A program made the translations under genes and the position numbers. 64,000 nt of DNA. Source: Robiginitalea sp. Lineage in GTDB: Bacteria; Bacteroidota; Bacteroidia; Flavobacteriales; Flavobacteriaceae. The notes under the pieces were generated by a model, which saw only the letters and a program-made list of their open reading frames with translations, did no database searches and was not told where the DNA came from. Positions within the stretch are counted from its first letter, which is position 1. Each line of letters begins with the position of its first letter. Where the stretch lies: NCBI GenBank assembly GCA_024642005.1, contig JAHECA010000003.1, forward strand, positions 1 to 64,000, read 5' to 3'. Shown here one piece after another: positions 32,508 through 39,891 of this stretch.

Positions 32508-32552
32508 TGTAACAAAAGTCACAATGGCGCGCCCTCATAAATGTTACTTTTG
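32508..32552 (+). promoter_or_regulatory. Crp/Fnr-type promoter A: box TGTAACAAAAGTCACA (32508-32523), -7 TACTTTTG (32545-32552)
   Basis: Inverted repeat plus exact TAnnTTTG; 21-nt gap; 19 nt before ATG 32572. Confidence 0.8.
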
Positions 32553-32571: not shown

Positions 32572-32970
32572 ATGATCCGCAAAGGCAGCAAACTCTACAG
32601 CATCCTCTTCTTAAAATGCCCGCGTTGCCACGAGGGGGAGTTCCTGATCAACCACCCGTATAACCTGAGCAGTTTCAACCGGGTGCGGGAAACCTGTCCC
32701 CAATGCGGCCTCAAGTACAAGATCGAACCCAGTTTCTATTACGGCTCCATGTACGTCTCTTACGCAGTTGGCGTTGCCGTGGCCGTTGCCGTATATGTCC
32801 TCACCCTGATTTTCGGGCTCCACTTGGGGGTCGGGGCTATTTTTGCGACTATTGTGGGCGCGCTGGTCGTGCTGATGCCCTGGATCGGGGCGGTTTCCAA
32901 ATCGATCTGGGCGAATTTCTTTTTCAAATTCGATAAAGCCAAGGCCCGGGAAGTAAAACAATCAACATGA
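32572..32970 (+). CDS. DUF983 membrane protein with zinc-ribbon
   Basis: LKCPRCHEGEF...ETCPQCGLKYKIEPSFYYGSMYVSYA. Confidence 0.88.
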   Translation: MIRKGSKLYSILFLKCPRCHEGEFLINHPYNLSSFNRVRETCPQCGLKYKIEPSFYYGSMYVSYAVGVAVAVAVYVLTLIFGLHLGVGAIFATIVGALVVLMPWIGAVSKSIWANFFFKFDKAKAREVKQST

Positions 32971-33599
32971 TACAAGAACTTAAATCGAGTTACGGCAGGC
33001 AGTTCGAAGAAGCCCTGATCAATGAGATTGCCCAGGTGGGCACCTTCAAGGAGGTGCAGGCCGGTCAGAAGCTCATGGATATCGGGGAGTACATCAAAGG
33101 GATGCCCCTGCTGATCTCCGGGGTCATCAAGGTGATGCGCGAAGATTCCGAGGGCGACGAACTGCTGCTGTACTACCTGGAGCAGGGCGACACCTGTTCG
33201 ATGACCATGAGTTGCTGTATCGGGCAGACCCGCAGTGAGATCAGGGCGGTAGCCGAGACCGACGCCCGGCTCATCATGATCCCGGTGCGCAAAATGGAAG
33301 AGTGGATCGCCAATTACCGGAGCTGGAGGAATTTCGTATTCGAAAGCTACAACAACCGGCTGAATGAATTGCTGCAAACCATAGACAGCATCGCCTTTAT
33401 GAACATGGACGAGCGCCTGGTGAACTACCTGCGTGAAAAGCAGCGCGTAAACGAAGACCGGATTATTCGAAACACCCACCAGGAAATTGCCTACGACCTG
33501 CACAGCTCGCGGGTGGTCATTTCCCGCCTGCTCAAAAAACTGGAGCAGCTGGGCAAGATCGAACTCCACAGAAACTACATTAAGATCAAAGACCTCTGA
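32967..33599 (+). CDS. Crp/Fnr-family transcriptional regulator with Cys77/Cys83/Cys84 in sensor domain
   Basis: cNMP-like beta-roll; HTH IAYDLHSSRVVISRLLKKLEQLGKIELHRNYIKI; TCSMTMSCCIGQTRSE. Confidence 0.93.
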   Translation: MIQELKSSYGRQFEEALINEIAQVGTFKEVQAGQKLMDIGEYIKGMPLLISGVIKVMREDSEGDELLLYYLEQGDTCSMTMSCCIGQTRSEIRAVAETDARLIMIPVRKMEEWIANYRSWRNFVFESYNNRLNELLQTIDSIAFMNMDERLVNYLREKQRVNEDRIIRNTHQEIAYDLHSSRVVISRLLKKLEQLGKIELHRNYIKIKDL

Positions 33600-36908: not shown

Positions 36909-36929
36909 TAACTGTTAATGATTCGACTT

Positions 36930-38339
36930 ATGACCATTGAGCAAATTTACACGGGATGTCTCGCCCAGGGGGCGTATTACATTGAAAGCAAGGGGGAAGC
37001 AGCCATTATTGACCCTTTGCGTGAAGTGGGGCCTTACATCAAGCGGGCCCGCCAGGACGGGGCGACCATCAAGTATATCTTCGAAACCCATTTCCACGCC
37101 GACTTTGTGAGCGGGCACCTGACCCTTTCCGAGAAAACCGGGGCCCCCATCATTTTTGGGCCCATGGCCGATCCGAAATTTGACGCGATCATCGCCACAG
37201 ACGGGCAGGAGTTCAAGGTGGGCGACCTGACGCTTATCGCCCTGCATACCCCGGGGCATACCATGGAGAGCACCACGTACCTGTTGCGCGATGCCTCCGG
37301 GAAAGACCATGCCATTTTCAGCGGAGACACCCTGTTTCTGGGAGACGTCGGCAGGCCCGACCTGGCCCAGAAAGCAGCCGACATGACCCAGGAACAACTG
37401 GCCTCGACCCTGTTTGACAGCCTGCGCAACAAGATCATGCCCCTGGCAGACGAAGTAATCGTTTACCCGGCGCACGGGGCAGGCTCGGCCTGTGGCAAGA
37501 ACATGATGAAGGAAACGGTAGACACCCTGGGCCACCAGAAACAGATGAATTACGCCCTGCGGGCCGACATGACGCGTGAGGAATTCGTCAGGGAAGTTAC
37601 CGACGGCCTGCTGCCCCCTCCCCAGTATTTCCCGCTTAATGTGAAAATGAACAAAGAGGGCTACGAAAACGTCGAAACGGTGCTGGAGCGGGGTACCCGC
37701 CCCTTGAGCCCGGAGGTTTTCGAGACCATTGCCAACGAAACCGGAGCACTGATCCTCGACGTGCGCCATCAGGATGATTTTGCCAAGGGTCACATTCCCC
37801 GCTCTATCTTTATCGGGCTTGACGGGAGCTTTGCCCCCTGGGCAGGAGCCCTGGTGGCCGACACCGAGCAAGCCATTCTGCTGGTCGCCCCCAAAGGGCG
37901 CGAAGAAGAGGCCGTTATCCGGTTGTCGCGCGTCGGCTTCGACCACACCCTGGGCTTCCTCGATGGCGGGTTTGAAGCCTGGAAACAGGCCTCGAAGGAA
38001 TACGACACGGTAAGCCCGATTCGCCCCTCTGAACTCAGGGAGGCTTTTGAAGCGGGAAAGGCGGCCGTGTTTGACGTGCGCAAGGAAAGCGAATACAAGT
38101 CGGAACACCTGGTAGGGGCCGAGAACACCCCCCTCGACTACCTGAACGAACACCTGCCCGAATTCCCGAAAGACGACATATTCTACCTGCACTGCGCAGG
38201 CGGATACCGCAGCATGATTGCGGCCTCCATCCTCAAGAGCCGGGGCATCCACAACCTGGTCGACATCAAAGGCGGCTTCGATGCCATCAAAGAAGCCAAT
38301 ATGCCGGTTACCGAATATGTTTGCCCCTCTACGCTATAA
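36930..38339 (+). CDS. CstB-like MBL persulfide dioxygenase + pseudo-rhodanese + rhodanese fusion (copy 2)
   Basis: Same architecture as 35395-36813 (ETHFHADFVSGHLTL; ILLVAPKG without Cys; YLHCAGGYRS). Confidence 0.93.
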   Translation: MTIEQIYTGCLAQGAYYIESKGEAAIIDPLREVGPYIKRARQDGATIKYIFETHFHADFVSGHLTLSEKTGAPIIFGPMADPKFDAIIATDGQEFKVGDLTLIALHTPGHTMESTTYLLRDASGKDHAIFSGDTLFLGDVGRPDLAQKAADMTQEQLASTLFDSLRNKIMPLADEVIVYPAHGAGSACGKNMMKETVDTLGHQKQMNYALRADMTREEFVREVTDGLLPPPQYFPLNVKMNKEGYENVETVLERGTRPLSPEVFETIANETGALILDVRHQDDFAKGHIPRSIFIGLDGSFAPWAGALVADTEQAILLVAPKGREEEAVIRLSRVGFDHTLGFLDGGFEAWKQASKEYDTVSPIRPSELREAFEAGKAAVFDVRKESEYKSEHLVGAENTPLDYLNEHLPEFPKDDIFYLHCAGGYRSMIAASILKSRGIHNLVDIKGGFDAIKEANMPVTEYVCPSTL

Positions 38340-38370: not shown

Positions 38371-38415
38371 TGTAACATAGGTTACTGCACAGGCCGATTA
38401 CCCTTAGTAGTTTAG
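38371..38415 (+). promoter_or_regulatory. Crp/Fnr-type promoter D: box TGTAACATAGGTTACT (38371-38386), -7 TAGTTTAG (38408-38415)
   Basis: Inverted repeat GTAAC-N4-GTTAC; 7/8 TAnnTTTG; 21-nt gap. Confidence 0.75.
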
Positions 38416-38418
38416 CTT

Positions 38419-38542
38419 CAAGAAGTCAGGGCAGACCCGTTAACCAGGGATGGCGACATTCTGGATCTGCCCGGAGGAAATGGTTGAGTTGATTGTTTTT
38501 AGTGAGGAAAGCGGCCTACATTTGTAAGGCCGCTTTTTTTTT
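38419..38542 (+). ncRNA. Candidate ~120-nt small RNA or attenuated 5' leader in the sulfur regulon
   Basis: Starts just after promoter D, contains 7-bp helix GGGCAGA(38429-38435)/TCTGCCC(38466-38472) and ends in a strong intrinsic terminator before the next gene. Confidence 0.5.
38508..38542 (+). terminator. Intrinsic terminator AAAGCGGCCT-acatttgta-AGGCCGCTTT + T run
   Basis: 10-bp perfect stem, nine consecutive T (38534-38542). Confidence 0.88.
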
Positions 38543-38584: not shown

Positions 38585-39190
38585 ATGAAAAACTGGATAT
38601 TTGCATGTGTTTCCCTCTTGCTGCTGGCCCAGTGCCGGCAGGCAGAGAAGAAGGCCGATGCGGCCGCTGCCCCCGCCCCCGAAGCGGCCATGCACCCTGC
38701 CCCTGACCCGTACGAGGTGGCCCGGGGCTTCGCCCAGGAAACCCAGGCGGCCCTGGGCAAAACGCTGCAGGCTCAAATAGGCGCTCATGGCCCTGCCGAA
38801 GCCATTTCGTTTTGCAATGTGAAGGCACTGCCCATTGCCGACAGTATTGCCAGGGCGCATGGCGCAACCATTAACCGCATTACCGACCGGCCCAGGAACA
38901 GGGCCAACCGGGCTAATCCGGAAGAGGCCCGGGTCATGGGAATGGTGCGGTTTTCCCTTTCAAAGGAGATTCAGCCTGATTGGCTCCGGTTGTCTGAAAA
39001 CGGCACAACCTACTATTACTTTCCCATAATGACCAACGAGCTGTGCCTGCAGTGCCACGGGGCACCTGGGCAACAGGTAACCCCCGAAGTAGGGGCACGG
39101 CTCGCCGAATTGTACCCGGAAGACGAGGCATTGGGCTACGGCCCCAACCAGCTGCGGGGCCTCTGGAAGGTGAGCCTGAAACAACCGTAA
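38585..39190 (+). CDS. DUF3365 (Tll0287-like) heme-binding lipoprotein
   Basis: Lipobox LLLAQC; c-type heme motif CLQCHG; KALPIADSIARAHGATINRITDRPRNRANRANPEE. Confidence 0.85.
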   Translation: MKNWIFACVSLLLLAQCRQAEKKADAAAAPAPEAAMHPAPDPYEVARGFAQETQAALGKTLQAQIGAHGPAEAISFCNVKALPIADSIARAHGATINRITDRPRNRANRANPEEARVMGMVRFSLSKEIQPDWLRLSENGTTYYYFPIMTNELCLQCHGAPGQQVTPEVGARLAELYPEDEALGYGPNQLRGLWKVSLKQP

Positions 39191-39201
39191 AATAAGCCCT
39201 T

Positions 39202-39891
39202 ATGCGACTACTCGGATTAATCGGCGGCACTTCCTGGCATTCCACCATCGCCTATTACCGGCTTATCAACGAAGCCGTCGGCAAAGTTATCGGGGAAGAA
39301 TCCAACCCTGAACTGTTGATCCACAGCATCAACATTGCGCTGATGCGCGGTCAGGACCGGGATAAGATCAGGGCCAAATACCTTGAGGTGGCCCGCGGGC
39401 TGGAAAACGAGGGGGCAAAAGCCCTGGTGATCTGTGCGAACACCCCCCACATGGTGTACGAACACGTACAGCCCCAGATTGGCATCCCCATACTGCATAT
39501 CGCCGATGCCACAGGGCAGGAGGCGGCCCGGCTCGGGCTTAAAAAACTCGGCCTGCTGGGCAACCAGCCCACCATGACCGGCTCATTCATCCCGGGTCCG
39601 CTGCGGGAAAAATACGGTATCGAGACCCTGATTCCCGAAGCGCGCTGGCTGTCGCAGGCGCACGATTATGTTTCCAGGGAACTCACCCAGGGCAAATTCA
39701 CGGCAGAAGCCCGGGAGTTCTTTATCAGGCAGATCGGCATGTTGCAGGAGCGGGGCGCCGACGGGATTATTTTGGGGTGTACCGAACTGCCCCTGCTGAT
39801 CAGGCCCGAAGAGGTCGATATCCCGGCCCTGGCCACTACCGACCTGCATGCCCGGATGGCTGCCGATTTTATTTTGGGCGATGAGACCTGA
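39202..39891 (+). CDS. Aspartate/glutamate racemase family protein
   Basis: LGLIGGTSWHSTIAYYRLINEAV; ALVICANTPHMVYE; GIILGCTELPLLI. Confidence 0.92.
   Translation: MRLLGLIGGTSWHSTIAYYRLINEAVGKVIGEESNPELLIHSINIALMRGQDRDKIRAKYLEVARGLENEGAKALVICANTPHMVYEHVQPQIGIPILHIADATGQEAARLGLKKLGLLGNQPTMTGSFIPGPLREKYGIETLIPEARWLSQAHDYVSRELTQGKFTAEAREFFIRQIGMLQERGADGIILGCTELPLLIRPEEVDIPALATTDLHARMAADFILGDET

Follow-up and report, generated by a model that had tools for sequence, protein, structure and literature searches.

Small RNAs described in Flavobacteriia are few, to our knowledge. Among the described systems closest to the locus considered here, Rli51 of Listeria monocytogenes is a 121-nt small RNA generated by premature termination within the 5' leader of an mRNA and also acts in trans (PMC11394854). 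UpsM of Rhodobacter sphaeroides is a small RNA that results from termination within a long 5' leader ahead of an operon (PMC5089854). Within the Flavobacteriaceae, Rfp18 of Flavobacterium psychrophilum is conserved in the genus Flavobacterium (PMC9723704). Searches of the literature found no small RNA tied to sulfide or persulfide metabolism in Flavobacteriia, no paper joining Robiginitalea with a small RNA, and no paper joining persulfide dioxygenase, Flavobacteri- and Crp.

The DNA analysed here is a 64,000-nucleotide stretch from the marine bacterium Robiginitalea sp. (hereafter the window), which carries a sulfide-oxidation gene cluster. Pfam searches of the surroundings of the segment under study identified a Crp/Fnr regulator, SulP, two MBL-rhodanese proteins, a Tll0287-like (DUF3365) protein, a racemase and a rhodanese, together with a pyridine nucleotide-disulphide oxidoreductase (SQR-like) and a YeeE-type sulphur transporter. 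Sequence comparison makes it highly probable that the intergenic segment between the second MBL-rhodanese gene, cstB2, and the DUF3365 gene is a functional RNA element. The features needed to follow the argument are as follows.

32967-33599, plus strand: Crp/Fnr-family regulator (Pfam PF00027 and PF13545)
36918-38339, plus strand: cstB2 (metallo-beta-lactamase fold plus rhodanese; PF00753 and PF00581), the 5' neighbour of the RNA
38372-38385, plus strand: Crp/Fnr-type palindromic box of promoter D, GTAACATAGGTTAC, an exact match to GTAACNNNNGTTAC
38408-38415, plus strand: -7 element of the Bacteroidota type (TAnnTTTG), TAGTTTAG
38421-38542, plus strand: predicted small RNA of about 122 nt, the promoter-to-terminator segment
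38429-38472, plus strand: variable 5' hairpin GGGCAGA/TCTGCCC, arms 38429-38435 with 38466-38472
38482-38504, plus strand: invariant core GGTTGAGTTGATTGTTTTTAGTG, identical in seven of seven species
38508-38542, plus strand: intrinsic terminator, 10-bp stem plus T tract
38585-39190, plus strand: DUF3365/Tll0287-like protein with a CxxCH haem motif (PF11845, E = 4.3e-17), first gene 3' of the terminator
39202-39891, plus strand: Asp/Glu-type racemase (PF01177, E = 2.3e-40), second gene 3' of the terminator

Direct reading of the sequence confirmed that a regulon-type promoter followed by a terminator occupies the gap between cstB2 and DUF3365, as the original prediction had stated. Placed from the -7 element, the 5' end of the predicted RNA would fall at about 38419-38423. 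The perfect 10-bp terminator stem followed by nine T that had been described is present: the arms AAAGCGGCCT (38508-38517) and AGGCCGCTTT (38527-38536) enclose a 9-nt loop, the nine T lie at 38534-38542, and the hairpin has a folding energy of -21.1 kcal/mol. A simple terminator scan omits this terminator, probably since its loop limit is 8 nt. From the end of the terminator to the DUF3365 ATG (38585), the distance in the window is 42 nt.

Promoter D had also been said to share its geometry with the other boxes of the window. This is the case for five further boxes, at 32509, 35323, 36865, 43050 (minus strand) and 43156; box and -7 element lie 22 nt apart, not the 21 nt originally given. These boxes are presumably bound by the Crp/Fnr-family protein encoded at 32967. 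Elsewhere in the genus, promoters of the form box-22 nt-TAnnTTTG are found before thioredoxin-like, peroxiredoxin-like and TolC-like outer-membrane genes (L165, L167-L173), names that were read from the sequences and not from a profile search, and the regulon seems to reach past the sulfide cluster.

With a BLAST search of the segment against 60 relatives, its 3' half was found in six other Robiginitalea genomes, every time between cstB2 and DUF3365, and 7 of 10 Robiginitalea genomes have the complete layout of promoter, RNA, terminator, DUF3365 and racemase. Across these seven homologues, the box of promoter D lies at the same place and is separated from the -7 element by exactly 22 nt, and the promoter-to-terminator segment measures 90-133 nt. 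A motif-matched promoter and an intrinsic terminator of its own, surrounding a short non-coding segment as is characteristic of bacterial intergenic small RNAs, are therefore found in all seven. The terminator has folding energies of -20 to -25 kcal/mol among the homologues, and all 10 stem pairs are kept in every sequence, eight of them invariant and one showing a GC to AU change in which both sides are altered; the loop differs in length and sequence while the stem is preserved. As to the conservation that had been named as a check on the prediction, the terminator is conserved in seven of seven sequences, and covariation gives weak support, saying little here because the terminator hardly varies. 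The proposal of a small RNA of about 120 nt made from a regulon-type promoter is thus supported by promoter, invariant 3' end and terminator, all conserved in seven species.

The main feature of the segment, which the original account missed while recognizing the promoter and terminator, is the 23-nt GU-rich core that adjoins the terminator on its 5' side. It is the sole exact word of at least 15 bases common to all seven species across the cluster of about 14 kb, the next longest shared word being one 14-mer in the SQR gene, so that the most conserved stretch of DNA in the entire sulfide-oxidation cluster is non-coding. Chance does not explain this identity because the background is saturated: only 4 of 123 four-fold degenerate sites of cstB2 (about 3%) are invariant in the same seven species, with 97% varying, and DUF3365 shows only 41-47% identity to the window copy. 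These figures also bear on the reading that the segment is an ordinary cstB2 terminator beside a decayed promoter, its conservation being incidental. Terminators are indeed common between transcription units, but 23 bases invariant in seven species against such divergence, with no second shared word of this length in the cluster, in practice exclude that reading, to which we assign a negligible probability.

A coding explanation was weighed in the same manner. An in-frame ATG present in six of the seven sequences would allow a leader peptide, MVELIVFSEESG..., to be encoded across the core. This candidate was rejected and is considered very improbable: coding constraint fails for the core because the start codon is missing from G008 and the core shows no synonymous change, despite a clade saturated at four-fold sites, and the ends of the reading frame differ among species. 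On the sequence evidence, the conservation of the core is explained neither by chance nor by coding constraint, and it has the form expected of an intergenic small RNA, namely conservation at the nucleotide level without coding constraint. Most simply, the core is proposed to be the seed or a protein-binding segment of a released small RNA.

The 5' part of the segment behaves differently. Between promoter and core, the homologues carry 27 to 70 nt that are free to vary in length and sequence. None of 200 shuffles of the full 123-nt segment folds as well as the segment itself (z = -3.76); when the terminator is removed, z falls to -0.75 and 38 of 200 shuffles fold as well, so the folding excess of the whole segment comes from the terminator. 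The GGGCAGA/TCTGCCC helix had been put forward as a functional structure. This could not be upheld: because z is -0.75 without the terminator, the helix is no evidence of function, and it is not conserved, a GC-rich hairpin at its position being found only in G000, G006 and G007 and being absent in G001. The core itself is partly paired in several predicted folds and is not clearly open.

On the question of what lies downstream, none of the seven genomes has a box between the core and DUF3365, and the only TAnnTTTG -7 element between the core and the DUF3365 ATG is the one in the window's own terminator loop; in these genomes, 19-56 nt separate the terminator from the ATG. DUF3365 and the racemase therefore seem to depend on read-through, which the terminator should attenuate. 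The original alternative of conditional termination before DUF3365 accordingly holds in so far as no other promoter motif is seen and read-through should be limited, whereas a switch between alternative structures is unsupported. An attenuator of this type, resembling that of Rli51, was tried and rejected, because the terminator has no upstream competitor: there is no conserved antiterminator, and the best upstream partner of a terminator arm reaches -6 to -13 kcal/mol against the -20 to -25 kcal/mol of the terminator.

In the reading that we favour and consider reasonably probable as a whole, promoter D would be switched on as part of the sulfide-oxidation regulon, the presumed activator being the Crp/Fnr-family protein from 32967. 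RNA polymerase would initiate near 38421 and mostly stop at 38542, freeing a small RNA of about 122 nt that would consist of a variable 5' part, the invariant GU-rich segment and the terminator hairpin. A minority of polymerases would pass the terminator and transcribe DUF3365 and the racemase, and the freed RNA would most likely act in trans through the core, which would either base-pair with an mRNA or several, or be bound by a protein. Within this reading, we infer that the segment is transcribed, that the named regulator controls it, that polymerases read through and that the RNA works in trans.

A doubtful alternative is a purely cis-acting leader, in which the core would bind a protein or small molecule that sets how much polymerase reads into DUF3365-racemase, the RNA being a by-product. 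That these genes have no other visible promoter in any of the seven genomes would fit such a leader, as would the position of the RNA, which always precedes DUF3365-racemase or, in the case of R. biformata, the racemase. Unlike riboswitches, however, the 5' part varies freely, no conserved alternative structure is seen, and no cis-regulatory Rfam family matches at threshold; indeed, at the gathering threshold the window matched no Rfam family at all, including riboswitches, RcsR1 and the L20 leader.

Support for trans action through base pairing was sought in several target scans. When the core was paired computationally with the predicted starts of the 670 genes called across 800 kb of G006, the mean pairing energy was -12.8 kcal/mol, identical to that of shuffled sequences, and the best site in this sample (-27.9 kcal/mol, at a CotH-like gene) is not conserved. 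The translation starts of the cluster offered no consistent strong pairing site, and near-exact complements of the core and seed patterns searched genus-wide fall beside unrelated genes. These limited scans (800-kb sample, cluster and genus-wide seeds) gave no conserved target; trans action is what we infer for the segment, and its being a trans-acting RNA is rated only a little better than even.

In the remaining 3 of 10 genus members, the cluster is present without DUF3365, the racemase and the RNA at that place. In a four-protein tree with weak support at its deep nodes, the positions of these genomes suggest that the module was lost more than once. Paralogue loss alternates among them as well: G002 and G004 retain only the cstB1-type gene and G003 only the cstB2-type (L154-L156), the latter showing 78.7% identity to the window cstB2 and 63% to cstB1. 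One of the three, G002, which we take to be R. biformata, has at another locus (L305:1744-2718, G002:C1) a box promoter, the stretch GGTTGGTTGTTTGTTTTGGGAGG, a terminator and a racemase, followed by a third MBL-rhodanese gene. This stretch, with boundaries chosen after it was seen, outscored 1999 of 2000 shuffles in alignment to the core, and it is likely to be a diverged, relocated relative of the window RNA.

Outside the genus, a search of 400 family genomes for the core with up to three mismatches returned only scattered matches with 2-3 mismatches, and none of 30 inspected was followed by a matching terminator. A covariance model run on the same 400 genomes gave, beyond Robiginitalea, only weak and mostly terminator-like matches and no convincing copy. 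In Aequorivita, a box promoter of the same kind directly drives a DUF3365 fusion gene with no RNA between, and in one other genus the box lies 71 nt before the racemase, again with no RNA between. In the Aequorivita fusion, DUF3365 follows a cytochrome-c-like segment, and its box promoter lies just after the Crp/Fnr gene (L049:3434-4459). Taken together, these results indicate that the RNA would have been added, or kept, in Robiginitalea only among the family genomes sampled. The segment would represent a small-RNA family that is conserved, apparently undescribed and part of a sulfide regulon.

Within the genus, 9 of 10 Robiginitalea genomes gave one more match to the covariance model, at the orthologous 3' end of an Hsp20 gene (named by Pfam on the G005 copy), where AATGGTTGGTTTGTTTAGTTGGTTAGTTAGG is followed by a terminator and is nearly invariant. 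The GU-rich stretch trailing this gene, TAATGGTTGGTTTGTTTAGTTGGTTAGTTAGG plus terminator, was recorded in L278, L283, L285-L290 and L297 (at about 1501 in each), and possibly represents a small RNA derived from the 3' UTR. A further GU-rich stretch, TTTGGTTGTTGATTTGTG, with a terminator stands after a fasciclin-like gene at about 554162 (minus strand) of G006:C1. In three genomes (L284, L293, L294), a short ORF starting MAN(Q/Y)N precedes a TTTAGTGTGTATTG-like stretch, which is conserved, and an AAAAAGCGGCC terminator.

The stretches after the Hsp20 and fasciclin-like genes may be sibling RNAs or may share one binding protein, and they are the points in favour of regarding the core as a general site for an RNA-binding protein common to several transcripts, serving stability or 3'-end processing and not target pairing. 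This alternative is quite improbable. Among the 53 terminators of an 800-kb sample, 52 have no such stretch and one does, for which reason a general GU-rich signal preceding terminators was rejected, and the stretches are near-invariant within each RNA but differ between RNAs, more like separate seeds. A wider possibility, which we hold to be distinctly unlikely, is a genus-wide small-RNA family whose GU-rich pre-terminator segment occurs, in diverged form, in the sulfide-regulon RNA, the R. biformata racemase leader and the 3' end of the Hsp20 mRNA, forming a post-transcriptional network that would link sulfide with heat or proteotoxic stress via one RNA-binding protein or overlapping targets.

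Returning to the favoured reading of a released small RNA, the core provides a concrete, testable 23-nt element in a sulfide-oxidation cluster, with a ready comparison in seven species with the RNA and three without the module, one of these having the relocated relative.

With respect to families already catalogued, the best sub-threshold Rfam score belongs to RcsR1 (RF02552), at 38456-38539 with 29.7 bits against a gathering threshold of 60, and the window RNA is not a member. Like the window RNA, GibS and FopS of Bacteroides thetaiotaomicron are small RNAs of Bacteroidota (PMC7366714, PMC11697453). FopS is a multicopy family with a seed at the 5' end (PMC11697453), whereas the window RNA has one copy and its core directly before the terminator. 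The structure of FopS was reportedly deposited in Rfam (PMC7366714, PMC11697453), and the window RNA has no Rfam match at threshold. Rfp18, likened here by description, is a conserved intergenic small RNA of Flavobacteriaceae with experimental support; it is described as strongly structured, as pairing through its third stem-loop and as affecting protease mRNAs (PMC9723704).

UpsM is confined to one bacterial family, as the Robiginitalea RNA is to one genus; its 268-nt leader and its Hfq- and RNase E-dependent processing differ from an RNA of about 90-133 nt (PMC5089854). Rli51, from an unrelated organism and likewise compared by description, has a predicted terminator/antiterminator pair, whereas no competing structure is seen for the window RNA; Rli51 arises from termination in a 5' leader, with read-through serving the downstream gene, as is proposed for the window RNA (PMC11394854). 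Rli51 and UpsM are known dual arrangements similar to the one proposed for the window RNA.
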